A DNA stretch of 64,000 nt from the NCBI GenBank assembly GCA_018269075.1, contig JAFDVJ010000012.1, positions 129,187-193,186 on the forward strand, written 5' to 3'. This document shows positions 7,313 to 54,200 of the stretch, in pieces. The DNA is from Acidobacteriota bacterium (GTDB taxonomy: Bacteria; Acidobacteriota; Blastocatellia; Pyrinomonadales; Pyrinomonadaceae). The position numbers and the translations under genes are program-made. How positions within the stretch are numbered: position 1 is the stretch's first letter; the number at the start of each line of letters is the position of its first letter. Under the pieces are notes generated by a model. That model did not search any database. It saw only the letters and a program-made list of their open reading frames with translations, and had not been told where the DNA came from.

Positions 7313-7436
7313 TTTTATTAAAGTTCGGGCGACGACGGAAATTCGGGAAAGCGGGAAGATTGTTCCCGGGCTTTCACGGCTTCTGACGAATCACGCCCCG
7401 CCCATTTTAAACACGCGCAAAACCGCCGGAAATTTT

Positions 7437-7985
7437 TCAGACGCCGTTGATTTTGCGGTACAGCCACGCCCGCGCGAACGTCCATTCGCGAAAGACGCCG
7501 GCCGTCGAGAGCCCGAGCACGGCCGCCGTTTCCTCGAACGTCAGCCCCGCGAAATAACGCAGCTCGACGATCCGCGCCTGCATCTCGTCGCGGGCGGCGA
7601 GCTCGGTCAATGCCAGATCGAGATCGAGCAGCGTTTCGTTCAACTGGACGGGAATCGTCGCGGCGTCGTCGAGCGCGATCTTCAGACCGTCGCGTTTGCG
7701 GGCGCGGCGCTCGCGGGCGTGATCGACCAGAATCCGCCGCATCGCCTGCGCCGCGAGCGCGAAAAACTGGCCGCGGTTCCGCCAGTCGACCGAATGCTGG
7801 CCGGCGAGCTTCAGATAGGCTTCGTGGACGAGCGCGGTCGTCGGCAGCGTCGCCGCGTATTCGTTCTGCAGAAGCCGGTGCGCGACGCGCCGCAGCTCGT
7901 CGTAAACGATCGGCAAAAGCTCGTCCAAAGCGGATTTGCGCCCGTTTTGCCACTCCTGCAAAAGCCGCGTCACGTCTTCCGTCAT
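7437..7985 (-). CDS. ECF sigma factor of the kinase-associated type
   Basis: 182 aa from ATG at 7985 (MTEDVTRLLQEWQNG), the start expected for this subfamily; a TTG 39 bp upstream with GGAAG ahead of it is possible. Region 2 includes LHEAYLKL-like TALVHEAYLKLAGQ and WRNRGQFFALAAQAMRRILVDHARERRA. Region 4 is ELRYFAGLTFEETAAVLGLS followed by TAGVFREWTFARAWLYRKI. This is the ECF subfamily usually encoded beside Ser/Thr kinases, matching the kinase directly downstream. Sigma activity is probably controlled by phosphorylation; that is known for the class only in outline. Confidence 0.93.
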   Translation of the reverse strand: MTEDVTRLLQEWQNGRKSALDELLPIVYDELRRVAHRLLQNEYAATLPTTALVHEAYLKLAGQHSVDWRNRGQFFALAAQAMRRILVDHARERRARKRDGLKIALDDAATIPVQLNETLLDLDLALTELAARDEMQARIVELRYFAGLTFEETAAVLGLSTAGVFREWTFARAWLYRKINGV

Positions 7986-8114
7986 AAAAATCTTTTTTCG
8001 GGGGAACTCGAAAAATTTTAACAAAACTTCCGCGTTTATGTATAGAAGAAAATTTTGACGGCGAAAACCGCGCTCCGAAACATCCGCGCCGGTCTTTCGT
8101 TCGCCGGTTTAGAA

Positions 8115-8987
8115 ATGACTTATATGATTGAATCCATTAAAAAAAGAGCCGCGAGAATCGTGTCGATCGGCCTGTTTCTGAGCATCGCGGCGGCCGCGCA
8201 GACGCTGCCCGAGATGACTTTTCCGAAGATCGACTACACGCCGAAGGTCAGCAAGGGCTGGGTCGGGCAGTATCTGTACGCGATCAAGTTCGACGGCCGG
8301 CAGAGCCTCCGGCCGACCAAGTTCGATTATCTTTACGACGTCAAAATCGAGCGCGTCCACACCGGCTTCGTCGAGCTGACGAGCGAGGTCCGCGGGGCGA
8401 TCCGGACGAACCAGCCCGACAAGAACAACGGCGCGCGCTGGGAATCGTGGATCCCGATCGGGACGAAGATCACGAGCTGGTCGATGCAGGACGAATTCGT
8501 CAAAACCGCGTTCGCCGCGTATCCGAACCTCGGCGTCGCGGCCGTCGACAAATACTCGGCGCTCGTCCAGCTCGAACGAAACATCCGCTACACGACGAAC
8601 GGCGCGTGGGTCCGCGGCCGGACGCATTACTGCGACCTCCAGATCGATCACGCGACGGGCAAATACACGCTCGCCGTGCCGAAGGTCGAGTTCGTGCTCG
8701 AAGGCGAGGACTGGGGCACGCGGATCGGCCCCGACGGCAAGACGGTCGCGCCGTACCGCGAAAAGATCAAGGGCGATCTGACGCATCAGGGCTCGGTCTT
8801 TCTCTCGCCGATCGAATGGGACATTCTCTCCGGCGATTTCGCCGAGGGCCAGCGCGAGATCGTCGTCCGCCGCCGGATTCCGGTCAAATACGCGCCCGAA
8901 CCGTTCGAGGAGCGCGGCAAAAAATACCAGCTGCCGGCGACGACCGGCTTTATCGATTTTTATATGGTGCTGACGCGCGTCGGCTGA
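8115..8987 (+). CDS. Secreted hypothetical protein, upstream of fibre gene
   Basis: About 290 aa with a signal peptide (about 10-30, ending AAAAQ) and a soluble beta-rich mature region. I do not recognise a family. Segments such as FDYLYDVKIERVHTGFVELTSEV, IPIGTKITSWSMQDEFVKTAF and TGFIDFYMVLTRVG suggest repeated strands. ATG codons at 8115 and 8124 are both possible; neither has a clear ribosome site. It ends 9 bp before the fibre gene, so the two probably form one unit and may work together at the cell surface. Confidence 0.75.
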   Translation: MTYMIESIKKRAARIVSIGLFLSIAAAAQTLPEMTFPKIDYTPKVSKGWVGQYLYAIKFDGRQSLRPTKFDYLYDVKIERVHTGFVELTSEVRGAIRTNQPDKNNGARWESWIPIGTKITSWSMQDEFVKTAFAAYPNLGVAAVDKYSALVQLERNIRYTTNGAWVRGRTHYCDLQIDHATGKYTLAVPKVEFVLEGEDWGTRIGPDGKTVAPYREKIKGDLTHQGSVFLSPIEWDILSGDFAEGQREIVVRRRIPVKYAPEPFEERGKKYQLPATTGFIDFYMVLTRVG

Positions 8988-8996
8988 GGAGGAAAT

Positions 8997-10946
8997 ATGA
9001 AGAAACTCGAAACCTGCCTGTTATTTCTGCTGCTCGGCCTTTTTCCGGCCGTCGTCGCGGCGCAGACGACCGCGTTTACCTATCAGGGAAGTTTGAAGGA
9101 AGGCGGCGCGCCGGCGAACGGCAATTACGACTTCGAGTTCCGGCTCTACGACGCTTTGGCGAACGGCAGCCAGATCGGCACGACGCTGCCGCGGCTGAAC
9201 GTGCCGGTCGCGAACGGCGTCTTCACCGTCCAGCTCGATTTCGGCGCGGCGTTTTCGGGCGCGAACCGCTTTCTCGAAATCCGCGTCGGGCCGGCCGGCG
9301 GCAACATCTTCATTATGTCGCCGCGCCAGAGCGTCGCGAGCGCGCCGTATTCGATCAAGAGCCTGACGGCCGCGACGACCGACAACGCGCTCGCGCTCGG
9401 CGGCATTCCGGCCGCTCAATACGTGACGACGACCGGCGGCGGCGCGAACTTCATCCAGAACTCGACCGGGCTGCAGACCGGAAACTTCAACATCAGCGGC
9501 AACGGCACGGCCGGCGGCACGCTTTCGGGGCTCTACGTCAACGCCGGTTTCGGCTATCTGCTCGGCAGCCAGCCGTTTCTCTCCGCGCTCGCGACGAATT
9601 CCTCGTTCGGCACCGAAACCGGCCCGGTCAATCTCGGCGCTTCCAACACCTACGCCGGCTACCGGGCGGGCAATGCGGGAACGTCGAACGCGCTCAACAA
9701 TTCGTTCTTCGGCGCGAACGCGGGCCGCTCGAACACCAACGGTTCGAGCAACTCTTTTTTCGGCGTCGGCAGCGGCGAGCTCAACACGTTCGGCGGCTTC
9801 AACGCGTTTTTCGGAAACACCACGGGCGCGGCCAACACGAACGGCAGCCGGAACACGTTCGCGGGCGTGACGGCGGGCCGCGACAACACGAGCGGCAGCG
9901 ACAACACGTTCGTCGGGATGGCCGCCGGCCAGCGCAACCTGTCGGGCGGCGATAATTCCTTTTTCGGCACGACCGCCGGCGCGTTCAATCAGACCGGCGC
10001 GTTCAATTCCTTCGTCGGGCGCAACGCCGGCGGCGCGAACACGACCGGCAGCAGTAACGCGTTCTTCGGCGCATCGGCCGGCGCGGGCGTCGTCGACGGC
10101 AGCAGCAACACGATGCTCGGCGCTTACGCCAACGGCGCGACCGCGAGCCTCAGCTTCGCGACCGCCGTCGGCTCTTACGCGCAGGCCGGCGCGAACAATT
10201 CGCTCGTCCTCGGCGCGATCGGCGGGACGGGCGGCTGTCAGGCGAACATCGGCTGCGAGACCGTCAAAGTCGGCATCGGCACGACCGCGCCGGCCTTCCG
10301 CCTCGACGTCGCCGACCGCGTCCGGATCAAGCAGAACCCGGCCGACACCGGCGCGAACAATTCCGCCGGGATCTGGTTTTTCCAGAACGGACCGAATACC
10401 GAGCGGGCCTTCGTCGGGATGGAAAACGACGGAAGCGTCGGCCTTTACGGCAACAACGGCGGCGGCTGGAGTCTCGTGATGAACACGCAGACCGGCGTCG
10501 TCAGCGTCCGCAATCTCGGCGCGGCCGGCGCGACGGCGCTCTGCCGCAACGCTTCGAACGAGCTCGCGACCTGCTCGTCGTCGCGGCGCTACAAGACGAA
10601 CATCGAACCTTACGCGCCGGGCCTCGATCTGATCCGCCGCCTGCGTCCGGTCGCGTTCGACTGGCGCGCGAACGATCAGCGCGATTTCGGGCTCGTCGCC
10701 GAGGAAGTCGCCGAGGTCGAGCCGCTGCTGACGATCGAGAACGAAAAGGGCGAGACCGAGGGCGTCAAATACGACCGCGTCGCCGTCGTCGCCGTCAACG
10801 CGATCAACGAACAGCAGGCCGAGATCGAGACGCTGCAGAAGAAGCTCGCCGAACAGACCGAGCTCGTCAAAAAACAGCAGGCCGAGATCGACGCGCTCAA
10901 ACAGTTCGTCTGCACGCAGAACCCGCAGCTCGCGCTTTGCCGGTAA
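8997..10946 (+). CDS. Secreted fibre/trimeric-adhesin-like protein with S74 chaperone domain
   Basis: 649 aa with GGAGGAAAT before the ATG. Signal peptide (ends VVAAQ), an N-terminal domain (TTAFTYQGSLKEGGAPANGN... about 25-130), then a long stretch of about 12-residue Gly/Asn/Phe repeats (NSFFGANAGRSNTNGSSN, NTFAGVTAGRDNTSG; about 215-370) like trimeric autotransporter heads. The C-terminus is a Peptidase_S74 intramolecular chaperone (SSRRYKTNIEPYAPGLDLI... RDFGLVAEEVAE) closed by a coiled coil (about 600-640). S74 domains help trimers fold and then cut themselves off. They are best known from phage tail fibres; no phage genes are nearby. Confidence 0.9.
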   Translation: MKKLETCLLFLLLGLFPAVVAAQTTAFTYQGSLKEGGAPANGNYDFEFRLYDALANGSQIGTTLPRLNVPVANGVFTVQLDFGAAFSGANRFLEIRVGPAGGNIFIMSPRQSVASAPYSIKSLTAATTDNALALGGIPAAQYVTTTGGGANFIQNSTGLQTGNFNISGNGTAGGTLSGLYVNAGFGYLLGSQPFLSALATNSSFGTETGPVNLGASNTYAGYRAGNAGTSNALNNSFFGANAGRSNTNGSSNSFFGVGSGELNTFGGFNAFFGNTTGAANTNGSRNTFAGVTAGRDNTSGSDNTFVGMAAGQRNLSGGDNSFFGTTAGAFNQTGAFNSFVGRNAGGANTTGSSNAFFGASAGAGVVDGSSNTMLGAYANGATASLSFATAVGSYAQAGANNSLVLGAIGGTGGCQANIGCETVKVGIGTTAPAFRLDVADRVRIKQNPADTGANNSAGIWFFQNGPNTERAFVGMENDGSVGLYGNNGGGWSLVMNTQTGVVSVRNLGAAGATALCRNASNELATCSSSRRYKTNIEPYAPGLDLIRRLRPVAFDWRANDQRDFGLVAEEVAEVEPLLTIENEKGETEGVKYDRVAVVAVNAINEQQAEIETLQKKLAEQTELVKKQQAEIDALKQFVCTQNPQLALCR

Positions 10947-11081
10947 GCCGTCGTTCGTCGTTTCAGTTCGTGCAAGGTCGAACCCGAACCCGAAACCTCG
11001 CCGGAAAGCGGCCGGCGGCCTTCCCGCGGCGAGCGGCAAGACCGCCGGAGAAGATGTTTTCGCGCCCGTCACACCGAAAAA

Positions 11082-11234
11082 CGTCCCCGAATGTTCGGGA
11101 ACACTTCCAAAACGTTTGGGAGCGCTCCCGAAGTATTGGGAAGACTTCCAAAACGTTTGGGAGCGCTCCCGAAGTATTGGGAAGACTTCCCAAACCTTCG
11201 GGAAGTCTTCCCAAATGTCCGGGAAGCATTCCGG
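11082..11234. repeat. Seven-unit array of 20/21-bp palindromic repeats upstream of typA
   Basis: Consecutive units start near 11082, 11103, 11123, 11144, 11164, 11185 and 11206. Each is itself an imperfect palindrome of the form CTTCCCAAA-NN-TTCGGGAAG. A 41-bp pair of units (20+21) is repeated exactly, 11103-11143 and 11144-11184. The spacing is two helical turns per unit. A partial eighth unit (CATTCCGG) trails off at 11227. No gene is apparent here. Confidence 0.9.
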
Positions 11235-11258
11235 TTTCCGAAAAAGCTCTCGACCCTC

Positions 11259-11348
11259 GACTCTCCACTCTCCACTCTCCACTCTCCACTCTCCACTCTC
11301 CACTCTCCACTCTCCACTCTCCACTCTCCACTCTCCACTCTCCACTCA
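11259..11348. repeat. Heptanucleotide array (CTCTCCA)x12
   Basis: About twelve almost perfect tandem units of CTCTCCA end 70 bp before the typA start codon. Unlike most arrays in the window it has no facing inverted partner. The unit is stop-free in all six frames. Confidence 0.95.
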
Positions 11349-11417
11349 CTACTCATTTGCCTTTTCCGCGCAAATCGGTCATCATTTTCGTTTGCCTTTC
11401 GGGCAGGATTTACAGCT

Positions 11418-13235
11418 ATGATCACGACAGAAAAAATTCGCAACATCGCCATCATCGCGCACGTCGACCACGGCAAGACGACGCTCGTCGACGCGATGCT
11501 CAAACAATCGCATATTTACCGTGACAACGAAACGGTCGTCGACCGCGTGATGGATTCGATGGATCTCGAGCGCGAGCGCGGGATCACCATTATGGCGAAG
11601 AACACGTCCGTCCGCTACGGCGACTACAAGATCAACATCGTCGACACGCCGGGCCACGCCGATTTCGGCGGCGAGGTCGAGCGCGTCCTCAAGATGGTCG
11701 ACGGCATCGTCCTCCTCGTCGACGCGGCCGAGGGCTGTCTGCCGCAGACGCGTTTCGTTTTGCGGAAGGCGCTCGAACAGAACCTGCCGGCGATCGCGCT
11801 CGTCAACAAGATCGACCGCCAGGACGCGCGGCCCGAAGAGGTCGTCAACGAGATTTACGATCTCTTTATCGACCTCGGCGCGAACGACGAGCAGATCGAG
11901 TTTCCGATCCTCTATTCGATCTCGCGCGACGGGATGGCGAAAAAGAACCTCGAAGACGAATCGAACTCGCTGAAACCGCTCTTCGAGCAGATCGTCGAGA
12001 CGGTTCCCGCGCCGAAAGCGCTGCGCGACGACACGCTCCAATTGCTCGTCGCGAACATCGACTACAATCCGTTCGTCGGCCGGCTCGCGATCGGCCGCAT
12101 CTTTTCGGGCGAGATCGCCAAGAACCAGGAAGTGATCGTCTCGAAACGCGACGGCTCGACGCAGAAGACGCGCGTCAAGGAGCTTTACGTTTTCGAGGGA
12201 CTCGAACGGCAGACGACCGATAAGGCCGGCGTCGGCGAGATCGTCGCGCTCGCCGGTTTCGACGACATCAACATCGGCGAAACGATCACGCTGACCGACA
12301 ATCCGAAGCCGCTCCCGGTGATCGCCGTCGACGAACCGACGATCGCGATGATCTTCGGCGTCAACACCTCGCCGTTCTCGGGCACCGAGGGCAAATACGT
12401 GACCTCGCGGCAGATCAAGGAACGGCTCGACAAAGAGCTTCTCGGCAACGTCGCGCTGCGCGTCGCCGACACCGATTCGGCCGACCAGTTCAAGGTCTCG
12501 GGCCGCGGCGAGCTGCAGCTCTCGATCTTGATCGAAATGATGCGGCGCGAAGGCTACGAGCTGCAGGTTTCGAAACCCGAAGTGATCACGAAAAAAGGTG
12601 AGGACGGCTCGACGCAGGAGCCGATCGAGCTCGTCGTGATCGACGTGCCCGAGGAATTCATCGGCGTCGTCACCGAGGCTTTGGGCCGCCGCAAGGGCCA
12701 GATGACGAAGATGATCAACAACGGCTCGGGCCGCGTCCGGCTCGAATACGACGTGCCGTCGCGCGGGCTGATCGGCTTTCGCGGCGAGTTTCTGACCGAA
12801 ACGAAGGGCACCGGCCTTTTGAACACGATGTTTCTCAGATTCGACCGCTGGCAGGGCGAGATGAAGGGCCGCGGCACGGGCTCGCTTGTCGCCGACCGGA
12901 TGGGCGAGGCGACGACCTACGCGCTTTACGCGCTGCAGGAACGCGGCGTGCTCTTTATCAAGCCGCAGACGAAGGTTTACGAAGGGATGATCATCGGCGA
13001 GAACGCCCGCGCGGTCGATCTCGACGTCAACTCGATCAAGGAGAAGAAGCTGACGAATATGCGCGCCGCGAGCGCCGACGAAGCGATGCGGCTCGTCCCG
13101 GTCAAGGACCTCTCGCTCGAAGAAGCGCTCGAATTCATCGCCGACGACGAGCTTGTCGAAGTCACGCCGAAATCGATCCGCCTCCGCAAACGCGTGCTCA
13201 AGTCGAATGAACGGCCGAAGAAAATAGTCGGTTAA
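11418..13235 (+). CDS. typA: Ribosome-associated GTPase TypA/BipA
   Basis: 605 aa, the usual length. The start [20 protein letters not shown] gives the G1 loop AHVDHGKTT. Further motifs are RERGITI (switch region), [16 protein letters not shown] and [16 protein letters not shown]. The C-terminal domain includes [19 protein letters not shown] and [19 protein letters not shown], diagnostic of TypA rather than EF-G or LepA. It binds the ribosome and aids 50S assembly, especially under stress or cold. The upstream 470 bp holds the palindromic array and the heptamer array, with no gene. Confidence 0.97.
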
Positions 13236-13553
13236 AAGTTCTGAGTTCCGTCTTACGGTCAATAACCTTAAGATAAGTCGAAAGTTGAATTTATTTAATA
13301 GTTTAATAGGCCGCGGATGACACGGATGACGCGGATTTTCACGGATTATTTGTTTTATAGTCGACGACGGAAATTGTTGATAAAGCCGCTGTTCCGTTGC
13401 GTTGGCTGTTTTTTCTTTCCACTAAAAACACCAAAAACACTAAATTATTTCGTGTTTTTGGTGTTTTTAGTGGAAAGTTAAATAACCGTTCGATAGTTTA
13501 ACGATCATTATTCCAACCAATTTTGTCACGAGCGGCCAGAAGATTTTGTCGAT
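13236..13553. repeat. Gene-free spacer with a perfect long hairpin
   Basis: No gene is seen. At 13415-13440 and 13452-13477 there are perfect 26-bp inverted arms (starting CTTTCCACTAAAAACACC) around an 11-nt AT loop. Each arm carries the 9-10-bp motif CACTAAAAA twice. Upstream, 13311-13357 has short direct repeats around CGGATGACACGGATGACGCG. The right flank shares CATTATTCCAAC with the first 95 bases of the window. Confidence 0.85.
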
Positions 13554-18416: not shown

Positions 18417-19358
18417 TCATTTCATCACCTCGCCGAACGAGACGGCTTTTTCCTTGCCGTCGACGTCGAACTTGATGAAGACGCGGCCGATCTTCGGATC
18501 GACCTTCGTGACCGTGCCTTCCTTGAGCGAGCTGACCCAGACGGCCTTGACCTTGTCGCCCGGCTTGGCCGCCGAGACGAGCGGAAACGGCGTGCAGCGC
18601 GATTTGTCGACGACCGCGATCGAGCCGGCAAAGCCGTTGACGAAGACCTTGTCGCCGGCGACGCGGATGACCTGCGCCGGCTTCTGTTCGGCGCCGTCCT
18701 GAATGGCGACCATCGTTCCGGGATCGAACGGCGCACCGATCTTGACGAACGAGTTCGGCTTGAGCTTTTCGTCCATCTGCCCGATCGTCGTCTTGCCGTC
18801 GCCCGATTTCGCCGGGTTGTCGTACTCGATGTCGAGATAGCGAACGACCGGTTCGGTCGGCGTCGAGGCGTCGGTGACGATCGCGCGGCTCATCCCCGAG
18901 CCCGACTGCCACCACGTCAGCAGGATGTCGCCCGCTTTCGCCGTGCCGCCGGCGGGAATCGCGACGATGTAGCCGTTCGGCACCTTGTTCTTTTTGCCGC
19001 CCGTGAATTCGACCTCGGACAGTTCCTTGTCGGGCGTCACCATTTTGGCCGAATACCAGATCATCGTCACTTTATCGGGGCCTTCGACGTTCGCTTCCTG
19101 CAGCCAGTTGTAGGACGGCACGAGCACGACCTCGCCGGCCTTGGCCGTCGTTTCGACCGCCGGAAAATCCTTGTACGGGAAGGTCGCCTGCATATTCGGA
19201 TCGATCGACGGCGACGTCTGGGCGGCCGGTTTGTTGGCCGCGCTGCCGTTGCCCGCGCCCGAATTCGCGGGCGCGGCGTTGTTCGAAGTCGAAGCCGCCC
19301 CGCCGCAGGCCGCGAGCGTCATCGCCAAAGTCATCAAAAATATTATTTTCTTAGTCAT
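18417..19358 (-). CDS. Lipoprotein of unknown function with SH3/Tudor-like C-terminus
   Basis: 313 aa. Signal peptide with lipobox LAAC (Cys about 18), followed by a low-complexity Ala/Asn/Ser linker to about 55. The mature part has two similar halves: KAGEVVLVPSYNWLQEANVEG and NSFVKIGAPFDPGTMVAIQDGA, and a final segment GDKVKAVWVSSLKEGTVTKVD that resembles small beta-barrel (Tudor/SH3) repeats. Family not recognised. It is the last gene of the minus-strand envelope cluster, upstream of a strong terminator. Confidence 0.75.
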   Translation of the reverse strand: MTKKIIFLMTLAMTLAACGGAASTSNNAAPANSGAGNGSAANKPAAQTSPSIDPNMQATFPYKDFPAVETTAKAGEVVLVPSYNWLQEANVEGPDKVTMIWYSAKMVTPDKELSEVEFTGGKKNKVPNGYIVAIPAGGTAKAGDILLTWWQSGSGMSRAIVTDASTPTEPVVRYLDIEYDNPAKSGDGKTTIGQMDEKLKPNSFVKIGAPFDPGTMVAIQDGAEQKPAQVIRVAGDKVFVNGFAGSIAVVDKSRCTPFPLVSAAKPGDKVKAVWVSSLKEGTVTKVDPKIGRVFIKFDVDGKEKAVSFGEVMK

Positions 19359-20025: not shown

Positions 20026-20622
20026 CTATTTTTTCTTCAACTGGGCGGTAAAACTGCCTTTGATCCGGCCGCCGCCGTCCTGCGTCAGATCGATCTCGCC
20101 GGTCACCGTCTCGGCCGTCGCGGAAACGATCTTGACGGTTCCCTTGGCGTTGTAGGTCAGCGACGTTTCCTCGACTTTGCCGTCCTTGAAGGTCTTGACG
20201 AGGACGTTGCTGACCCGCCCGTATTTATCGTCGACTTTCCCGCCCGAGCTGCTCAGCTCGAAGGTCTTCGCCTTGAGCGGCGTCTCGACCGTGTCGCCCG
20301 AGTCGCCGAAGAGCGTGATCTCGACCGCCGTCTGTTTGTCGTCCGCCGGTTTGGCCGCCGCGTTCGCGTCGTAATCGAAGTCCGTCAGATCGATAAAATA
20401 GCGGACGATCGGCTTCCCGTCGAGCGTGATCGAGACGGGCGTGACGACGCCTTTTTTGATCTCCAGATCCTTCTTGACGTCGGTTTTCGTGTTGAGCGTC
20501 TTGAAGTCCATCGAGAGTTTGCCCGGTCCGGCCGGCGTCGTTCCCGCCGGCCCCGTGCCGGCCCCGCCGCCGCAGGCCGTCAGCAGCACGCCGCTTAAAA
20601 TCAACAGTAAAAATTTTTTCAT
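20026..20622 (-). CDS. Lipoprotein, second gene of an ECF-type operon
   Basis: 198 aa from the ATG at 20622, which has GAGGAGA upstream; a longer form would swallow the ribosome site. Lipobox LLTAC (Cys about 17), Gly/Thr/Pro linker, then a beta-rich domain (ITLDGKPIVRYFIDLTDFDYDAN, GTVKIVSATAETVTGEIDLTQDGGGRIKGSFTAQL). The ATG overlaps the stop of the upstream membrane-protein gene by 4 nt (ATGA), so they are coupled. The promoter-like motif at 20878-20903 drives both. Function unknown; likely an envelope stress or surface component. Confidence 0.8.
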   Translation of the reverse strand: MKKFLLLILSGVLLTACGGGAGTGPAGTTPAGPGKLSMDFKTLNTKTDVKKDLEIKKGVVTPVSITLDGKPIVRYFIDLTDFDYDANAAAKPADDKQTAVEITLFGDSGDTVETPLKAKTFELSSSGGKVDDKYGRVSNVLVKTFKDGKVEETSLTYNAKGTVKIVSATAETVTGEIDLTQDGGGRIKGSFTAQLKKK

Positions 20623-20855
20623 TTTTTTTCTCTCCTCAAAACAAGCCGCAATCCCCATCCGAAGGCGCACAATCCGGCGAGCGTCGTCAGACCGACGATC
20701 GTCCAGAATTTAACGGGCTGTTCGGCCAGATAAATCCGCGTCTGATGGCCCGTCCGCCCGCCGAACGCCGCGCCGGTCAGGACCTGAACGGCGGCGAGCG
20801 CGAAGAGCAGCAGGGCGAGCCCGAAGGCGATTATTTTGGAGCGGAGCGGCTTCAT
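20619..20855 (-). CDS. Small two-span membrane protein
   Basis: 78 aa. Two hydrophobic segments, about 8-29 (IIAFGLALLLFALAAVQVL) and about 49-68, are separated by a polar loop of about 20 residues (GGRTGHQTRIYLAEQP). The N-terminus is basic and the C-terminus ends RREKK, so both ends are probably cytoplasmic. First gene of the operon with the lipoprotein at 20026-20622. The ECF-type motif ends 23 nt before its start codon. Family unknown. Confidence 0.75.
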   Translation of the reverse strand: MKPLRSKIIAFGLALLLFALAAVQVLTGAAFGGRTGHQTRIYLAEQPVKFWTIVGLTTLAGLCAFGWGLRLVLRREKK

Positions 20856-20877: not shown

Positions 20878-20903
20878 GTGATTTTTTTCGAAAAAACATT
20901 TCA
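20878..20903 (-). promoter_or_regulatory. ECF-type promoter motif, copy 1
   Basis: Minus-strand TGAAATGTTTTT, 11 nt, CAC. The -35-like and -10-like parts are spaced exactly as in four other copies in this cluster. It ends 23 nt before the membrane-protein start codon. Read as an extracytoplasmic-function promoter by spacing; not tested. Confidence 0.75.
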
Positions 20904-20920
20904 GCCGCCGCCCTGTTTTT

Positions 20921-21544
20921 TTATTCGCACTTCATAAAAACGCCGCCGCCGCCGAAACTGTCGACGACCGAAGCCGACCAGCGGCCGCCCGCGTAGGTCT
21001 GCTTGACGATCCATTCCTGCGCCTGACAATAGGGGCGATTCGGGATTTTCAGCAGCGCCCAGCCGCGAATGAAGCGGTTCGTCGGGATGCCGAGCGAGTT
21101 TTTATACATCTTCCAGTCCTGAAAGCTCGATCCGATCTTGAGCACGGTCGCGCCCTTGTAGTAGGCGAGAAATTTCGTCTTCGCCATATTCTGCTCGGTC
21201 GGCCGGCTGAAGGCGGGCTGTTCCCACGCGCGCGACTTGCCGCCCGAATCGATCAGGCCTTTCAGCTCGTCGAGCTTGTCTTCGACCGACGCGCGCCAGT
21301 TCGCCGGAAAGTCCGACGGCTTGGCGTTGATGATCTTGGCGAGCTCGGCCTTCCAGATCTCGGGCTCGAACAGCAGTTTCTGGACGTCGTCCGAAGTGCT
21401 CGTTTTCGGATCGTCGATCGCCCGCTGGATGTCCTTGCGGACGAACATCAGATTGGCGTCGATCTTCGTCTTGATGTCGGCCTGCGCGAACGCGGCCGGC
21501 GCGAAAAGCAACATCGAAAACATCATAACCAGTAATTTTTTCAT
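20921..21544 (-). CDS. Secreted hypothetical protein
   Basis: 207 aa from ATG 21544, with GAGGAG upstream; an earlier in-frame ATG would overlap that site. Signal peptide ends AFAQA. The mature part has a helical N-terminal half (DIKTKIDANLMFVRKDIQRAI, and WKAELAKIINAKPSDFPANW) and a C-terminal half with conserved-looking WALLKIPNRPYCQAQEWIVKQTYAGGRW. Two Cys residues near the end may form a disulfide. Family not recognised. It lies 17 bp from the stop of the membrane-protein operon motif region and may be transcribed with the delta-60 gene upstream (37 bp gap). Confidence 0.75.
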   Translation of the reverse strand: MKKLLVMMFSMLLFAPAAFAQADIKTKIDANLMFVRKDIQRAIDDPKTSTSDDVQKLLFEPEIWKAELAKIINAKPSDFPANWRASVEDKLDELKGLIDSGGKSRAWEQPAFSRPTEQNMAKTKFLAYYKGATVLKIGSSFQDWKMYKNSLGIPTNRFIRGWALLKIPNRPYCQAQEWIVKQTYAGGRWSASVVDSFGGGGVFMKCE

Positions 21545-21581
21545 CGTTTTTTTCTCCTCAAGCAATTATTGATACTGACTT

Positions 21582-23690
21582 TTACGGGATGAACACCGAC
21601 GGCAGCGGCGTGTCGCCGCCCGCCCCGAAACCGACGATCGAAACGCCGGCCGTCGTCCGGTTTAAGAACCAGGTACTCGTCGCCGGCCGGAAGACGGCCG
21701 TGTCGGTTTTGCCGTCGCCGTCGTAGTCGGCCGGCACGGGCGTGTCGCCCGAAGTGCCGAACGGGAACGAAAAGAAGCTCGAATCCTCGCTTCTCAAGAT
21801 GAACCAGACGCCGCTCGACGGACGGAAGAACGCGACGTCGGCCTTGCCGTCGCCGGTATAGTCGCCCGGCACCGGTTTGTCCGTCGAAAGCCCGAATTGA
21901 AGCGCGGCCGTCTGGCCGGTCGAGCTGCGCGAATACCACCATTCGCCGACCGAAGGCCGGAAAATCGCGATGTCGGCTTTATGATCGCCGTCGTAATCGG
22001 CCGGCACGGGTTTGTCGCCCGTCGCCCCGAAAGTCGCGATCGTCGTGCCGCCGTCGCTCGACCGCGAAATAAACCACGTCACCGTCGAAGGCCGGAAAAC
22101 GGCCGGATCGGTTTTGCCGTCGCCGTCATAGTCGGCCGGCACCGGAACGTCGCCCGAAGTGCCGAACGGGAACGAAAAGAAACTGCCGTCTTCCGAGCGG
22201 AGAACGAACCAGAAACCGGTCGGCGCCCGGAAAAAAGCGATGTCCGCTTTGCCGTCGCCGGTGAAATCGCCGGGGACGAGCTTGTCGCCCGAAGTCCCGA
22301 ACTGCGCGGCGAGCACCTGATTGTCGCTGGAACGCGAATACCACCATTCGCCGACCGGCGGCCGAAAGATGCCGACCTCGGAGCTGTCGTCGCCGTCGAA
22401 ATCGAACGGGATGTTGAACGTCCGCAGATGATAGCGCGCGACGCCGACGATGCTCGATCCGGTGTTGGCCGAGCCCACGACCAGCAATTTTCCGTCGGCC
22501 TGCAGAACGCCTTCGCTGGAAAGGTCGCTGTTCGCCGCAAAATCGGTGATGACGCGCCCGTCGCCGTCGAAGCTCGGGTCGAGTACGCCGTCCGCCGTGT
22601 AGCGCACGAGCGCAAAATCGACCGTGCCGTTCTGATCGGTCTGGCCGAGCACGACGATCCGCCCGTCGGCCTGCAGAACGACGTCGCTCACGCTATCGGA
22701 GCTCGTCCCGTTGAAATTGGTCGAGACCTTGCCGTTCGTCCCGAAGCCGTTCAGATTGAGCGCGCCGGTCGCGAGATACCGGACGCAGGCAAAGTCCGAG
22801 CTGGTCGTCGGGGTCGAGGTCGTACCGCAGACGACGACGCGCCCGTCGGCCTGCACCGCGACGCCCGCCGCCTGATCGTTATTGACCGCAAAATCGGTCG
22901 TGACGATGCCGTCGCCGTCCCAGTTGGTATCGAGCGAGCCGTTCGTGTTGAGCCGGACGACGCCGAAATCGGTGTTCGTGCCGGGCGTCGCCGAACCGAC
23001 GATGACGATCTTTTCGTTTTGCTGGAGCGCCGCCGCCCACATCAGATCGTTGTTCGGCGTGACCGAGACGATCACTTTGCCGTCGGTATCGAACGAGGTG
23101 TCGAGCGAGCCGTTCGTGTTGAGCCGGGCGGCCGCGTAATCCTGCCCGGCGGAAATCGTGCGCCCCGCCAGCACGTATTTGCCGTCGCTCTGAATCAGAA
23201 TGTTCATCGCCGATTCGATGGTCAGCGAACCGAAATCGACCGTCGCCTTGCCGTCGCCGTCAAAGGTCGTATCGAGCGAGCCGTTCGGATTGTAGCGGGC
23301 GATGGCGAAATCCTGGCCGGTCGCGGCGAGATTCGCGCTGCCCGACACGAGGATCTTGCCGTCTGCGAGGATCTCGACCGACATGGCGTCGTCGGGCCCG
23401 AGCGCGAAATCGGTCGTCACTTTGCCGTCGCCGTCGAAGGTCGTATCGAGCGAGCCGTTCGGATTGAGCCGCGCGACGAAAAAATCGAAGTTGGATTGGC
23501 CGACGACGACGATCTTGCCGTCGGGCTGGACGGCGATGCCGCGGCCGAGCGAAGAACTGCCGTTCGAGACCGTGACGCGGCCGTCGGCGTCGAACAATTT
23601 ATCGAGACTGCCCGCGACCGACGCGCGGATTATCAAGGGAAAGACAAATAAAACTGCGAGCAGCGCGGTCATTGATCCAATTTTCAGCAT
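21582..23690 (-). CDS. Secreted delta-60 repeat and FG-GAP repeat protein (paralogue 1)
   Basis: 702 aa from the ATG with AAGGAGAAG upstream. Signal peptide (ends ASVAG), then delta-60 repeats (about 25-430; units such as VQPDGKIVVVGQSNFDFFVARLNPNGSLDTTFDGDG), then VCBS/FG-GAP-like units (about 435-700; DYDGDGKTDPAVFRPSTVTW and similar), ending LPSVFIP. Both repeat types build beta-propellers; the Asp-rich DxDGDGxxD loops probably bind calcium. Probably a surface or secreted protein. Two tandem ECF-type motifs lie upstream, 39 and 72 nt from the start. Paralogue of 24084-26189. Confidence 0.92.
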   Translation of the reverse strand: MLKIGSMTALLAVLFVFPLIIRASVAGSLDKLFDADGRVTVSNGSSSLGRGIAVQPDGKIVVVGQSNFDFFVARLNPNGSLDTTFDGDGKVTTDFALGPDDAMSVEILADGKILVSGSANLAATGQDFAIARYNPNGSLDTTFDGDGKATVDFGSLTIESAMNILIQSDGKYVLAGRTISAGQDYAAARLNTNGSLDTSFDTDGKVIVSVTPNNDLMWAAALQQNEKIVIVGSATPGTNTDFGVVRLNTNGSLDTNWDGDGIVTTDFAVNNDQAAGVAVQADGRVVVCGTTSTPTTSSDFACVRYLATGALNLNGFGTNGKVSTNFNGTSSDSVSDVVLQADGRIVVLGQTDQNGTVDFALVRYTADGVLDPSFDGDGRVITDFAANSDLSSEGVLQADGKLLVVGSANTGSSIVGVARYHLRTFNIPFDFDGDDSSEVGIFRPPVGEWWYSRSSDNQVLAAQFGTSGDKLVPGDFTGDGKADIAFFRAPTGFWFVLRSEDGSFFSFPFGTSGDVPVPADYDGDGKTDPAVFRPSTVTWFISRSSDGGTTIATFGATGDKPVPADYDGDHKADIAIFRPSVGEWWYSRSSTGQTAALQFGLSTDKPVPGDYTGDGKADVAFFRPSSGVWFILRSEDSSFFSFPFGTSGDTPVPADYDGDGKTDTAVFRPATSTWFLNRTTAGVSIVGFGAGGDTPLPSVFIP

Positions 23691-23728
23691 TTCGAGACTT
23701 CTCCTTTTATTTCCTTCTTTGTCTATTT

Positions 23729-23754
23729 GTGCAGATCGGCGAAAAAACATTTCA
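23729..23754 (-). promoter_or_regulatory. ECF-type promoter motif, copy 2 (proximal)
   Basis: TGAAATGTTTTT-N11-CAC on the minus strand, followed by AAATAGA. The motif ends 39 nt before the start codon of the delta-60 gene. Confidence 0.8.
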
Positions 23755-23761
23755 CCGAAGA

Positions 23762-23787
23762 GTGCCGAAAGCCGAAAAAACATTTCA
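23762..23787 (-). promoter_or_regulatory. ECF-type promoter motif, copy 3 (distal, tandem)
   Basis: Same motif and spacing, 33 bp upstream of copy 2. CAC is followed by TCTTCGG, the least A/T-rich -10 region of the set, so it may be weaker or a duplication remnant. Confidence 0.65.
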
Positions 23788-23793
23788 CACGCC

Positions 23794-23828
23794 GAAAAAC
23801 AAGGCCGAAAGCGCTGAAACTTTCGACC
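23794..23828 (-). terminator. Rho-independent terminator
   Basis: Minus-strand stem GGTCGAAAG/CTTTCGGCC with an 8-nt loop is followed by TTGTTTTT. It lies 45 bp after the carboxypeptidase-regulatory-like fragment and just upstream of the tandem promoter motifs. The stem sequence resembles the terminator at 26262-26293. Confidence 0.8.
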
Positions 23829-23872
23829 TTTTACTTTTTACTTTTTACTGACAGCCCCGCGTCCCTTTTATC

Positions 23873-24076
23873 TCAGGGCAAAGCGAAGAAATCCAGATCC
23901 TCAAGCTGAGCGGTGACCGAAACGACCTGCGGGTTGAATCGACAGCTTTTCGAGTTCACCGCGATGATATAATTTTCCCCCGTCGCCACTTCATTAAATC
24001 GGTAATATCCGAACGACGAAGTCCGCGTCGTCCGGCGATTGCCGCTCGCACCGGTCAACGTCGCCGAAGCGTTCAT
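23873..24076 (-). pseudogene. Fragment of a carboxypeptidase regulatory-like domain
   Basis: 67 aa beginning MNASATLTGASGNRRTTRTS and ending LEDLDFFALP. It matches only the second part of a CarboxypepD_reg-type beta-sandwich (SSFGYYRFNEVATGENYIIAV... FNPQVVSVTAQL). The opening strands (the usual GRVTD-type start) are missing and there is no signal peptide. The ATG is 7 bp after the stop of the delta-60 paralogue at 24084-26189, so it could still be translated by coupling. Most likely what remains of a domain once fused to a neighbour. Confidence 0.6.
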
Positions 24077-24083
24077 TGAGCGC

Positions 24084-26189
24084 TCACGGAACGAACGCCG
24101 TCGGAATCGCCGTGTCGGTCGATGCGCCGAAGCTGACGATCGACACGCCGGCCGTCGTCTGGTTCAGATACCACGTGCTCGCCGCCGCGCGAAAAACGGC
24201 CGAATCGGTCTTCCCGTCGCCGTCGTAATCGGCCGCGACGGCCGTGTCGCCGGCCGCGCCGAACGGGAACGAGAAGTAGCTGCCGTCTTCCGAGCGCTGC
24301 ACATACCAGACGCCGGTCGACGGGCGAAAGACGGCGATGTCGGCCTTGCCGTCGCCGGTGTAATCGCCCTGCACCGGTTTATCGGTGCCGACGCCGAAGC
24401 GGTAGACGCGGAAGTCGCCGTCCGACGAGCGCAGATACCACCACGAGCCGTCCGACGGCCGGAAGATCGCGACATCCGCCTTGCCGTCGCCGTCGTAATC
24501 GGCCGCGACCGGTTTGTCCTCGCTCGAACCGAACCCGACGATCGAAGTCGCGTTGTCCGACGAGCGCGAGATATACCACGTACCGGCCGAAGCGCGGTAA
24601 ACGGCCGGATCGGTTTTGCCGTCGCCGTCGTAATCGGCCGGCGCGGGCACGTCGCCGCTCGCGCCGAACGGGAACGAGAAGAACGAGCCGTCTTCCGAGC
24701 GCAGGACATACCAGAAGCCGGAAGCGGGACGGAAGAACGCGATGTCCGATTTGCCGTCGCCGGTGTAATCGCCCGGCGTGATCTTGTCGGTCGAAGCGCC
24801 GAACTGCGCGGCGAGCACCTGATTGTTCGACGAGCGCGAATACCACCACTCGCCGACGGACGGGCGGAAGATGCCGACGTCCGTTTTGTCGTCGCCGTCG
24901 AAATCGAACGGCGTGTTGACGACGTGCGGGTTGAAACGCAGCAGCGCGGCGCGGACGATGCCGCTGCTCGCGGAGCCGCCGACGACGATCCGGCCGTCCG
25001 CCTGCAGCGCGACGGCGCGGCCGATGTCGGCGCTGCCGACGTTGATGTCGGCCGACACTTTGCCGTCCGTGTCGAACGAGGTGTCGAGCGAGCCGTCGGA
25101 ATTGAAGCGCACGACCGCCGCGTCTAATCCGCCGACCGGCGCTGCCGCGCCGGCGACGACGAGCTTTCCGTCCGGCTGGACGGCGATGTCGTAAGCCTGA
25201 TCGTTGGTGCCGGTCGAGACCGAGGCCGTCGCCTTGCCGTCCGTGTCGAAGCTCAGATTGAGCGCGCCGTTGGTGTTGTAGCGCGCGCAGCCGAAATCGC
25301 GTTCGGTTGCCGACTGGCCGGCCGCCCCGCAGACGACGCTCCGGCCGTCGGGCTGGATCGTGATCGCGTTGGCGACATCGTCGGAACCGTTAAAATCGGT
25401 CGTGACGATGCCGTCCGTGTCGAAATTCGTGTCGAGCGCGCCGGTCCCGAGCAGCCGCACGAGACAGAAATCGCCGTTCGACGAGCCGGCGAGGATGATC
25501 CGGTCGTTGGCCTGGATCGCCGCCGCATTGAGAGTGTCGACGCCGTTCGTGACCGCGACCGTGACCTTGCCGTCCGTGTCGAACGAGGTGTCGAGCGTGC
25601 CGTCGAGATTGTAGCGGGCGGCCGCGTAATCGACGTCGGTGGTCGTGCCGAGCGCGCGGCCCGCGACCACGTATTTGCTGTCGCTCTGAACCAGAATCTC
25701 GTAAGCCGCTTCAATCGTCCGCTGGCCGAAATCGGTCGTCACCTTGCCGTCCGTGTCGAAGTTCGTGTCGAGCGCGCCGGCCGGCGTGTAGCGGGCGATC
25801 GCGAAATCCATCCCGGTGCCCGAAACGCTCGCCGAACCGGCGACGAGGATCCGGCCGTTCGGCTGGATCTTCACCGCATAAGCGGTGTCGACGCCGCCGC
25901 CGAAATCGGTCAACACTTTGCCGTCGCCGTCGAAGGTCGTATCGTAGGAGCCGTCCGGATTGAGGCGAACGACCAGAAAATCGTCGTCCATCCAGCCGAC
26001 GGCGACGATCTTGCCGTCGGGCTGGACCGCGACGTCGTAAATAATCGAAACCGTCGTGCCCGGGATCAGAATCTTGCCGTCCCCGTCGAAGCGTTTATCG
26101 AGGCTTCCGGAAAGCGCCGCCAGCCCGGCGACGGGAAAAAACAACAGGAGCGCAAACACCGCGGCGAACAATCTTTTTTCCAGCTTCAT
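24084..26189 (-). CDS. Secreted delta-60 repeat and FG-GAP repeat protein (paralogue 2)
   Basis: 701 aa with GGGAG ahead of the ATG. Signal peptide (ends AGLAA), delta-60 units about 25-430 (QPDGKIVAVGWMDDDFLVVRLNPDGSYDTTFDGDG), FG-GAP-like units about 435-698 with repeated DYDGDGKAD(V/I)AIFRPS loops, end IPTAFVP. Architecture and length match the neighbour at 21582-23690, so this is a tandem duplication that has diverged. Its ECF-type motif ends 39 nt before the start codon, the same leader length as the paralogue. Role unknown; likely a cell-surface propeller protein. Confidence 0.92.
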   Translation of the reverse strand: MKLEKRLFAAVFALLLFFPVAGLAALSGSLDKRFDGDGKILIPGTTVSIIYDVAVQPDGKIVAVGWMDDDFLVVRLNPDGSYDTTFDGDGKVLTDFGGGVDTAYAVKIQPNGRILVAGSASVSGTGMDFAIARYTPAGALDTNFDTDGKVTTDFGQRTIEAAYEILVQSDSKYVVAGRALGTTTDVDYAAARYNLDGTLDTSFDTDGKVTVAVTNGVDTLNAAAIQANDRIILAGSSNGDFCLVRLLGTGALDTNFDTDGIVTTDFNGSDDVANAITIQPDGRSVVCGAAGQSATERDFGCARYNTNGALNLSFDTDGKATASVSTGTNDQAYDIAVQPDGKLVVAGAAAPVGGLDAAVVRFNSDGSLDTSFDTDGKVSADINVGSADIGRAVALQADGRIVVGGSASSGIVRAALLRFNPHVVNTPFDFDGDDKTDVGIFRPSVGEWWYSRSSNNQVLAAQFGASTDKITPGDYTGDGKSDIAFFRPASGFWYVLRSEDGSFFSFPFGASGDVPAPADYDGDGKTDPAVYRASAGTWYISRSSDNATSIVGFGSSEDKPVAADYDGDGKADVAIFRPSDGSWWYLRSSDGDFRVYRFGVGTDKPVQGDYTGDGKADIAVFRPSTGVWYVQRSEDGSYFSFPFGAAGDTAVAADYDGDGKTDSAVFRAAASTWYLNQTTAGVSIVSFGASTDTAIPTAFVP

Positions 26190-26227
26190 CTTTTATTTCT
26201 CCCAAAAAAACCGAATTTCGCTGATTA

Positions 26228-26253
26228 GTGATGAATTGCGAAAAAACATTTCA
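26228..26253 (-). promoter_or_regulatory. ECF-type promoter motif, copy 4
   Basis: TGAAATGTTTTT-N11-CAC then TAATCAG, 39 nt before the second delta-60 gene. The CACTAA -10-like sequence is shared with copy 5. Confidence 0.8.
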
Positions 26254-26261
26254 CGCGCACG

Positions 26262-26293
26262 AAAAAAAGGCCGAAAGCCGGGGCTTTCGACCA
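26262..26293 (-). terminator. Rho-independent terminator after the anti-sigma gene
   Basis: Minus-strand stem GGTCGAAAGCC/GGCTTTCGGCC with loop of about 2-4 nt is followed by seven T. It isolates the anti-sigma gene from the delta-60 gene, which then has its own promoter motif. Confidence 0.9.
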
Positions 26294-26318
26294 TTTATTT
26301 TCGAGCTTCGGGCGTTGA

Positions 26319-27302
26319 TTACTGACGGGTCACGCGGAACTGGAAATCGGCGGCCGACTCTTCCCCGCCGGCGGCGTTGAAACCGTAAACCTTGACGAAG
26401 TAATCGCCTTTTTTGAGTTTGGCGGCCGGGAAGAAAACGCCGAGCCGCGAGTTGCGGGCGTTGATCTTGCCGCTTCGATAGATCGTCCGGCCGTCGGCGT
26501 CGACGAGCTCCGCACGGTAGGTTTTGTAATCCTGGCTTTCGAGATGGAGCTCGAAATTCGCGCCGGTCGTTTCGTTCGTCAGCTTCAGCTCGCTCGTCCT
26601 GCCTTCGCCGCGAATCGTCGGGGCGAAGAGCGCGAGCGTCGCCGTCACCGCGCGCGGCGGCGTTTCCTTCGGCACCGGTTTATTGATGTTTTCGGCGTTG
26701 ACGTTGGCGGGCGGGCGGCTCGCTTCGTTCCGGTTCGGCGCGGCGTTGACGACGGTTTCGTTCGCCGGGCCGGCGCCGTTTTCGTTTTTAACGGGCGTCG
26801 GCGTCGGCGCGACGGGCGTCGGCGTGGCGTGTTTGACGATCTCGCCGCCGCCGCCGCGGTTTCCGCCGATCAGGAACCAGAGCCCGAAAACGAGCAGGAT
26901 GAGCAGCGCGGCGAAACCGGCGCCGAAGGCGAGCGACGGTCTTTTAAATAATCCGGCGAGCAGATTCCAGACGGAATTCTCCGCCGTCACCGGCTCAGTT
27001 TTTTTTACGGCCGGCCGGTTTTCGGCGATCAGCCGGTCAATCATCTCGCGGGTGAACGCGACCCGGCGGCGGCGCGTTTCGGTCGTCAGGAAACTTCGTT
27101 CGAACTTCGTTTTTTCGGCCGGCGAGAGCGTTTCGCGGACATAGGCCTCGATCAGCTCGTCCTCGACGACGCCGAGCTCTTCGAACAGGCCGGAGTCTTC
27201 CGCGATGAATCTGTCCTCGAACGCGGACCTCTCCTCTTCGGCCATCTCCCCGAGCAAAAAGCGGCGAATTTCCTTTTCGTTTTTGAATGTTTCCTGAGTC
27301 AC
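26319..27302 (-). CDS. Single-pass anti-sigma-factor-like protein with periplasmic beta domain
   Basis: 327 aa, GTG start with AGGGG upstream. The cytoplasmic part (1-120) begins EIRRFLLGEMAEEERSAFED, like the N-termini of acidobacterial anti-sigma proteins. There is one membrane segment (about 126-147), a Pro/Asn-rich outer linker (150-215) and a C-terminal Ig-like beta domain (about 220-327, ending AADFQFRVTRQ). The ECF sigma gene is directly upstream. The gene has its own ECF-type motif 23 nt before the start, which suggests a negative feedback loop. Likely holds the sigma factor until the outer domain is disturbed or cut; inference from topology and context. Confidence 0.85.
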   Translation of the reverse strand: MTQETFKNEKEIRRFLLGEMAEEERSAFEDRFIAEDSGLFEELGVVEDELIEAYVRETLSPAEKTKFERSFLTTETRRRRVAFTREMIDRLIAENRPAVKKTEPVTAENSVWNLLAGLFKRPSLAFGAGFAALLILLVFGLWFLIGGNRGGGGEIVKHATPTPVAPTPTPVKNENGAGPANETVVNAAPNRNEASRPPANVNAENINKPVPKETPPRAVTATLALFAPTIRGEGRTSELKLTNETTGANFELHLESQDYKTYRAELVDADGRTIYRSGKINARNSRLGVFFPAAKLKKGDYFVKVYGFNAAGGEESAADFQFRVTRQ

Positions 27303-27324
27303 TTTTCCCCTTTCTCTAATTTTA

Positions 27325-27350
27325 GTGACGAAATCGTCAAAAACATTTCA
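27325..27350 (-). promoter_or_regulatory. ECF-type promoter motif, copy 5
   Basis: TGAAATGTTTTT-N11-CAC then TAAAATT, 23 nt before the anti-sigma GTG. This copy lacks the TCG that follows the T run in the others, but total spacing is unchanged. Confidence 0.75.
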
Positions 27351-27357
27351 CTCCTCT

Positions 27358-27526
27358 TTGAGTGGAGAGTGGAGAGTGGAGAGTGGAGAGTCCGATTGAC
27401 TTATTTCCTTTGAGCGGAGAGTGGAGAGTCCGATTGATTTATTTCCTTTGACTCTACACTCTCCACTCTCCACTCTCCACTCTTTACTCTCCACTCTCCA
27501 CTCTCTACTCTCCACTCCCGTTGCAG
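27358..27526. repeat. Facing inverted heptamer arrays (GAGTGGA/CTCTCCA)
   Basis: About six units of GGAGAGT-type repeat face about ten units of CTCTCCA-type repeat. In the middle a 24-bp stretch (TCCGATTGA...TTTCCTTTGA) is duplicated. The array overlaps the 3' end of the sigma gene, whose stop TAG is formed from repeat sequence. Confidence 0.9.
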
Positions 27527-28111: not shown

Positions 28112-28268
28112 CAGTTTAGAATTAAGAATTAAAAATTAAAAATTAAAAATTAAAAATCTGAAAGAATCCCGTTAAAAAAAAAGGAGCCGTCTCGACGGTC
28201 TCCCAATTTTTATTATTTTTAATTTTTAATTTTTAATTTTTAATTCTTAATTCTTAATTCTTAATTCC
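28112..28268. repeat. Facing inverted heptamer arrays (TTAAAAA/TTTTTAA)
   Basis: Arrays based on AATTAAA/TTAAAAA (28112-28157) face TTTTTAA/TTCTTAA arrays (28208-28266). They flank the terminator of the CHAT gene. Another unit sequence, same 7-bp period and facing layout as elsewhere. Confidence 0.9.
28173..28204 (-). terminator. Rho-independent terminator after the CHAT gene
   Basis: Minus-strand GGAGACCGTC/GACGGCTCC stem with one bulge and GA loop, followed by nine T. It separates the CHAT gene from the sigma gene, so the two may be transcribed separately. Confidence 0.8.
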
Positions 28269-37960: not shown

Positions 37961-38023
37961 CCGCCCGCTAAAAACACGAAAACACACGAAATAATTTAGT
38001 ATTTTTGGTGTTTTTAGTGGACG
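37961..38023. repeat. Palindromic 9-mer element
   Basis: Imperfect inverted arms carry CTAAAAACACGAAAACAC and GTATTTTTGGTGTTTTTAG. The flank CGGCGAACGCTTGTTTATCC resembles that of the copies at 35150 and 47176. It lies 84 bp upstream of the S9 peptidase gene. Confidence 0.75.
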
Positions 38024-53920: not shown

Positions 53921-54200
53921 CAGAACTGTTCGGCACGTGCTCAAACGCAGTTTTTATGATTTTTGAGACAAACCGCCGCGAAATTTGCCGGGAACTGAAA
54001 AGCCCGGCCGGCGAGCGGCTGTTTTTCGGTCCACGAAACACACTAAAAACACTAAAAAAACACGAATGATATTTAGTGTTTTTGGTATTTTTGGTGGATA
54101 AAAACCGGCTGTTCGCCGGACTGACGGATCAAATTCAATCGAAAAACGCAACTCACGAACGACTCGCCGTTTCGGTCAATTACCGTGCCGAACAACTCTG
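53921..54200. mobile_element. 280-bp palindromic MITE-like element, copy B
   Basis: Same ends (CAGAACTGTTCGGCACG / CGTGCCGAACAACTCTG) and nested layout as 47064-47343, same length. Flanked by identical GTAAATTTA at 53912-53920 and 54201-54209. That 9-mer is nearly self-complementary, so part of the match could also be read as an extension of the inverted ends. Confidence 0.9.

Follow-up and report, generated by a model that had tools for sequence, protein, structure and literature searches.

A 64,000-nucleotide stretch of DNA from an Acidobacteriota bacterium (the window) carries a bipartite, promoter-like motif in five copies around genes for a CHAT protein, a sigma factor and an anti-sigma factor. 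The locus raises the question of which protein reads this motif and which genes are controlled through it. The motif, its position, its conservation, its covariation with the sigma factor and its conserved targets are established by computation. Very probably the motif is a promoter recognized by the ECF-type sigma factor encoded next to it, which would drive the anti-sigma gene and genes for exported proteins with negative feedback only, and we infer that RNA polymerase starts at the motif. Sigma region 4 would read the first half (TGAAATGTTTT) as the -35 element, and sigma region 2 the second half (TTTCGTCAC-like) as the -10 element. Freed sigma factor would transcribe its own membrane-anchored anti-sigma factor together with exported-protein genes (delta-60/FG-GAP propeller-like proteins, a small membrane protein and lipoproteins), most of them in the cluster and a few unlinked. 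The circuit would thus produce a self-limiting pulse with negative feedback, and release of the sigma factor would be controlled by the CHAT protein, exported or, in some relatives, fused to the anti-sigma factor.

Motif copies in the window and in the genome

The window was scanned for exact matches to TGAAATGTTTTT-N11-CAC. The five copies of the preliminary description were recovered at its coordinates, all on the minus strand (Table 1), and its second claim, that the window holds no further exact copy, agreed with the scan. In 100 dinucleotide shuffles of the window the exact motif occurred 0 times. The gaps between CAC and start codon were 22, 38, 71, 38 and 22 bases, equal to the previously given 23, 39, 72, 39 and 23 nt, which include the first base of the codon. 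Open reading frames and domain profile searches also confirmed the downstream genes as named before: anti-sigma factor, two delta-60/FG-GAP proteins and membrane protein/lipoprotein. With up to 2 mismatches, the 12-mer matched 12 times in the window (5 exact, 7 with 2 mismatches, 0 with 1; shuffle mean 5.8).

Table 1. Motif copies and genes of the locus. Positions refer to the window; ranks and bits were obtained with a matrix trained on relatives without the window.
Feature	Position	Strand	Basis or score
Motif copy 1, candidate anti-sigma gene promoter (TGAAATGTTTTTGACGATTTCGTCAC)	27325..27350	-	Rank 1 in window, 30.8 bits
Motif copy 2, candidate promoter of first delta-60/FG-GAP gene	26228..26253	-	Rank 3, 26.3 bits; terminator-like hairpin just upstream
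Motif copy 3, distal in tandem pair before second delta-60/FG-GAP gene	23762..23787	-	Rank 2, 26.7 bits
Motif copy 4, proximal in tandem pair	23729..23754	-	Rank 7, 19.7 bits
Motif copy 5, candidate promoter of small membrane protein/lipoprotein genes	20878..20903	-	Rank 12, 14.8 bits
TPR-CHAT caspase-like protein, 943 aa	28274..31105	-	Pfam CHAT 3.5e-64
ECF-type sigma factor, 194 aa	27505..28089	-	TIGR02989 9.6e-11, TIGR02937 9.7e-6, both under curated cut-off
Anti-sigma factor, 327 aa	26319..27302	-	Position after sigma gene, alignment, predicted model
Exported delta-60 repeat/FG-GAP protein, predicted target	24084..26189	-	Domain profile matches, motif upstream
Second delta-60/FG-GAP protein, 60% identical to first, predicted target	21582..23690	-	Domain profile matches, homology
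Exported protein after second delta-60 gene, probably same transcript	20921..21544	-	Homologues direct predicted targets in L173, G025
Small membrane protein, 78 aa, predicted target	20619..20855	-	55% identical homologue predicted target in G025
Lipoprotein, start overlaps end of small membrane protein gene	20026..20622	-	ORF position, homologue in G025
Lipoprotein further downstream	18417..19358	-	59% identical homologue in G025 cluster; regulon membership by synteny only

The relatives-only matrix placed its three best positions in the window at 27323, 23760 and 26226, and the remaining two copies came 7th and 12th, with scores below the best of 30 simulated sequences (21.8). Copy 5 is thus low-ranking, yet a near-identical copy is carried by the homologue of its downstream gene in G025 (a different genus of the same family). 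Matrix false positives included an AT-rich stretch, CGAAATAATTTAGTRTTTTTGGTGTTTT, which was found near-identical at 13425-13452, 37987-38014 and 54063-54090 of the window, the third one partial. Terminator-like hairpins were located upstream of two of the candidate promoters (26292-26269 and 23830-23801), with no excess of terminator-like sites overall (13 vs 14.6 in shuffles).

The genome of origin (G000) is a 7.4 Mb draft, 86% complete. One additional exact copy was found genome-wide, on contig C7, 24 nt ahead of a small lipoprotein gene. The bare 12-mer occurred nine times, six times with N11-CAC, once with N10-CAC (39 nt ahead of an exported-protein gene) and twice apparently unrelated. 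Chance and scattered repeats were rejected as explanations, given the absence from shuffles and the few exact copies in the genome. Up to 2 mismatches gave 24 genome matches, and the reversed pattern 10, which marks most weak matches as noise; one mismatch in five genomes gave 114 vs 60. Regulon members were therefore not drawn from the one- and two-mismatch genome searches. A looser pattern, YGAAAYGTTTT-N12-CAC, added a candidate on contig C75, 107 nt ahead of a lipoprotein gene, and a one-mismatch copy on C122 lies 56 nt ahead of an exported-protein gene; both are perhaps unlinked regulon members. Most predicted regulon members lie in the cluster; with unlinked ones on contigs C7 and C112, the regulon is not wholly local.

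ECF promoters are bipartite, with an AAC-like -35 and a CGT-like -10 element. Here, the first half of the motif contains TGAAAT, not AAC, and CGTCAC is present in two of the six exact genome copies.

The sigma factor and recovery of the motif from relatives

ECF (group IV) sigma factors have only the sigma2 and sigma4 domains, joined by a short linker. The window sigma scored 25.3 bits against TIGR02937 (cut-off 42.9), and a Pfam profile search gave no match to a sigma domain. Its predicted model (pLDDT 76.9, pTM 0.42) had sigma factors as best PDB matches, with named ECF sigmas in rows 2-6, at a best E of only 0.0099 and a TM of about 0.3-0.4.

Sigma homologues were detected in 42 of the 60 genomes of related bacteria that were searched; the relatives go under the names of uncultured Acidobacteria, Blastocatellia or Pyrinomonadaceae. 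The motif gives this sigma family a predicted promoter and regulon; a studied example in its bacterial group was not found in the literature searched. Besides the window's own, 80 loci out of 135 sigma matches were fetched, mostly the best-scoring ones. Six of these were dropped from EM and cross-validation, since the gap was too short for the motif, leaving 74. Gaps were trimmed before the coding start of the anti-sigma gene; untrimmed, EM returned that coding signal rather than the promoter.

EM motif discovery on the 74 sigma/anti-sigma gaps, with the window left out and no seed from it, returned the same bipartite motif, TGAAATGtTTTngnnntTTTnGCCAnTa. It was assigned in 53 of 74 loci, of which L059 was a wrong placement with the true copy beyond the stretch used. 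The log-likelihood was 366 (364 with as many seeds as in the shuffled runs), vs about 80-84 for three shuffled sets and 114-137 for three random-stretch sets. In 5-fold cross-validation, 39/74 held-out loci were detected at p<=0.01 and 48/74 at p<=0.05; 26/74 missed the latter threshold. Twelve loci were added later. Nine were scanned and six were new, L170, L171, L172, L177, L178 and L179 being apparent duplicates of G-handle loci and not independent. In 6/6 further scanned loci outside the training set the motif was present in the sigma/anti-sigma gap, ranking 1, 1, 3, 4, 2 and 1 among the positions of its own locus (L173-L176, L180 and L181, respectively). Taken over all loci, with training loci reused in the figure, the motif followed the sigma gene at p<=0.01 in 40/81.

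In 19 of the 53 assigned loci the motif starts with the sigma stop codon. TGA followed by AA was found at 26/51 sigma stops vs 13/151 other ORFs; the putative -35 element thus often begins with the stop codon itself. With the stop codon cut off, EM joined the -10 half to a ribosome-site-like sequence and did not return the -35 half.

Covariation between motif and sigma factor was measured in 47 loci. The distance in sigma region 2 correlated with that of the -10 half at r 0.295 and with the -35 half at 0.158; for region 4 the values were 0.286 with the -35 half and 0.048 with the -10 half. The crossing statistic, for which the -10 stretch had been narrowed after the first covariation run, was D=0.375 (47 loci; permutation p=0.001; bootstrap 95% 0.10-0.61). 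At three score thresholds, permutation p was 0.001-0.002 and the bootstrap fractions <=0 were 0.000, 0.003 and 0.020. Part of the covariation is plain relatedness, as sigma distance shows a correlation with flanking DNA too (r 0.21 vs 0.31 for the motif). The crossed pattern is what a sigma factor reading the motif would predict.

The link of the motif to the adjacent sigma factor, made earlier from proximity, is supported by the relatives-only EM, the six further loci, the crossed covariation and the homologous targets in other genera. A competing explanation, which we consider improbable, is that another DNA-binding regulator or another sigma factor of the same genome uses the motif and controls the cluster by chance. 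Four more members of the same sigma family are encoded in this genome and their promoters may be alike, and unlinked motif copies exist; against this, in other genera and families the motif keeps to the gap behind genes of this sigma family, and each half varies with its own one of the two DNA-reading sigma regions, a pattern not expected from an independent activator.

Still a good deal less probable is common descent of the copies, an upstream region having been duplicated along with the delta-60 genes and no regulator being shared. The two delta-60 genes are paralogues with 60% identity, and local duplication could account for the tandem pair, yet the same motif precedes unrelated genes (anti-sigma factor, membrane protein and C7 lipoprotein), and the spacer bases vary among the copies whereas both halves are preserved. 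Least credible is an action in RNA, as a leader element or translation signal. The motif does always lie shortly before a start codon; ribosome-site-like sequences, however, follow it as separate elements, in many relatives it shares bases with the sigma stop codon, and its halves covary with the sigma regions.

Predicted targets and a proposed feedback circuit

On the minus strand the gene order is CHAT, sigma, anti-sigma, delta-60, delta-60, the gene at 20921, membrane protein and lipoprotein. Several predicted targets are conserved in another genus. In G025 the order is sigma, motif, anti-sigma, motif, a 385-aa exported protein, motif and small membrane protein, followed by homologues of the window genes at 20026 and 18417; the C-terminal part of the 385-aa protein matches the product of window gene 20921. 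A homologue of the latter (46%) has its own motif copy in L173. In L176 a 1-base motif variant accompanies a 1045-aa protein with a C-terminal part like the delta-60/FG-GAP proteins, and C112 of the own genome encodes a distant homologue (27%) of the 385-aa G025 target. The tandem pair before the delta-60 gene was also present in G001 (same genus), 32 bp apart, and its proximal copy precedes the start codon by 39 nt. Both strict copies in G016 precede weak or short ORFs, and one of the four strict sites in G001 (L136) has no ORF behind it.

An N-terminal score >1.8 was obtained for 19/22 target genes vs 42/82 background genes of the same loci, with L136 and L151 (no ORF) and L169 (short doubtful ORF) left out of the 22. 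This enrichment of exported proteins was treated as weak because of that background and because the start chooser favoured hydrophobic starts.

Two further arrangements were noted. Two species (window 23729-23787 and L055 2911-2968) have a motif pair, spaced 32-33 bp, ahead of a delta-60 gene, and L175 carries four motif copies in 5.2 kb after the sigma gene (6638-11801), heading genes other than those of the window.

An anti-sigma-like domain was detected in 78/81 loci. The window protein consists of a helical N-terminal domain, one membrane segment and a predicted beta-sandwich C-terminal domain. Class I anti-sigma domains have a four-helix N-terminal fold that clamps the sigma factor, and zinc-binding anti-sigma factors (ZAS) carry an HxxxCxxC motif. 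N-terminal helices were predicted in the model of the window protein; the HxxxCxxC motif was found in 0/78 of the domains. The best 50 PDB matches listed for the model contained no anti-sigma domain and consisted of matches to the beta-sandwich part or of unrelated chains. The N-terminal domain presumably inhibits the sigma factor.

The negative feedback proposed in the preliminary description is supported as a promoter arrangement, with the motif before the anti-sigma gene. Positive autoregulation is usual for ECF sigmas, not obligatory. No motif excess was found before sigma genes (2/80 at p<=0.01 and 7/80 at p<=0.05, about chance) or before CHAT genes (1/30 and 5/30 at the same thresholds, also about chance), so positive autoregulation finds no support and a self-limiting pulse with negative feedback is suggested. 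The sigma factor appears to drive its own inhibitor and targets and not itself, which would be a simple case of control by negative feedback only.

The CHAT protein and known systems

The window CHAT protein has an N-terminal hydrophobic segment like a signal peptide, and catalytic His and Cys are present. A CHAT-like match was obtained in 70/81 loci, with TPR-CHAT <=4 kb from the sigma gene in 66/81. Within 6 kb and on the same strand, CHAT was upstream in 33 loci, downstream in 15, fused to the anti-sigma domain in 11 and lacking in 22. The own genome (7.4 Mb) yielded 13 CHAT matches in total, and each of its five sigma homologues lies <=2.9 kb from a CHAT domain on the same contig. A strong N-terminal hydrophobic stretch was found in 37/59 complete neighbouring CHAT frames. 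A PDB search with the CHAT protein had TPR chains among the best 60 of 65 matches. A reading as a defence system was rejected, PADLOC having given only a TPR model for this protein.

The fusion proteins (~1200 aa) are encoded right after the sigma gene in L099, L102, L080, L100, L109, L111, L115, L116, L122, L126 and L127, the first two from the own genome. In these proteins the anti-sigma domain (E 1e-22 to 1e-31) is immediately followed by a membrane segment, with TPR and CHAT further along (Pfam on three). By alignment, catalytic His and Cys are present in 59/59 neighbouring CHAT domains, 11 fusions included; a loss of His from fused CHATs, suggested by a pattern search (42/63 with it), was rejected as a fault of the pattern. 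The gap held no convincing motif copy in 8/11 fusion loci (best <11 bits vs 12-14 for L080, L102 and L126), so the fused branch may use another promoter.

Proximity in 66/81 and fusion in 11/81 loci suggest CHAT-controlled release of the sigma factor by putative cleavage, and we infer that the anti-sigma factor is under the control of CHAT, acting from the outer face of the membrane. We propose tentatively, and with more doubt than confidence, that a TPR-CHAT protease, exported or anchored in the membrane, responds to an envelope signal by cutting the anti-sigma factor (in trans if separate, in cis if fused), freeing an ECF sigma that re-makes its inhibitor. Such a system would be widespread in Blastocatellia-like Acidobacteriota and a CRISPR-less, outer-side counterpart of Craspase-Csx30-sigma. 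The fusion would tie bacterial caspase-like proteins to sigma release outside CRISPR. Among the matches listed, no report of a CHAT/anti-sigma fusion was found in the open-access literature. Novelty rests on the CHAT-linked and fused anti-sigma factors; the regulon alone is of the known ECF sigma/anti-sigma type.

As in RpoE-RseA and SigW-RsiW, the sigma gene is followed by a gene for a membrane-anchored anti-sigma factor and the predicted regulon comprises exported proteins. Unlike in these systems, the predicted promoter lies between the sigma and anti-sigma genes and not before sigma, HxxxCxxC is absent, a CHAT gene or fusion is present and the sigma factor has four conserved cysteines. The putative -35 element TGAAATGTTTT resembles the SigW -35 box as given in an excerpt of PMC8103513, ATTGAAACCTTT.

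Control of a sigma factor by a CHAT protease is known from type III-E CRISPR, and CHAT beside ECF sigmas has been noted, according to passages of PMC10028731 and PMC8999054, respectively. In the former, TPR-CHAT Csx29 cleaves Csx30, the inhibitor of an ECF-like sigma. This Craspase system (Csx29, Csx30 and CASP-sigma) shares TPR-CHAT, a sigma inhibitor (putative here), an ECF-type sigma and sigma sites in the locus (predicted here) with the cluster described here (passages of PMC10028731). Type III-E Craspase is characterized by Cas7-11 and a CRISPR array. In the present cluster, by contrast, TPR-CHAT is apparently exported or anchored in the membrane, where the putative inhibitor is located as well. 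The window sigma scored 19.8 bits against the type III-E sigma model (cut-off 100). ECF54 sigmas have CHAT-domain proteins in their genetic context, with proposed control by proteolysis, and are described in the passages concerned as lacking an anti-sigma factor, with an example from Geodermatophilus (PMC8999054). CHAT near sigma is a likeness to this group as portrayed there; the anti-sigma factor present here, sometimes fused to CHAT, argues against membership.

Two CxxxC pairs of the window sigma (C125/C129 and C184/C188) are kept in 90-98% of 81 homologues, and a metal or redox site at these four cysteines is possible. CorE (ECF238) likewise has cysteines near the sigma2-sigma4 linker and at the C-terminus (PMC8999054, in part); unlike in CorE as characterized there (CXC), the spacing here is CxxxC, a long C-terminal extension is absent and an anti-sigma factor is present. 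The sigma gene is flanked by heptamer tandem repeats, GAGTGGA/ACTCTCC and AATTAAA/AATTTTT (window 27360-27517 and 28120-28266), whose opposite-strand versions adjoin each other. Similar short tandem repeats occur in the gaps of relatives, e.g. L056 and L099.
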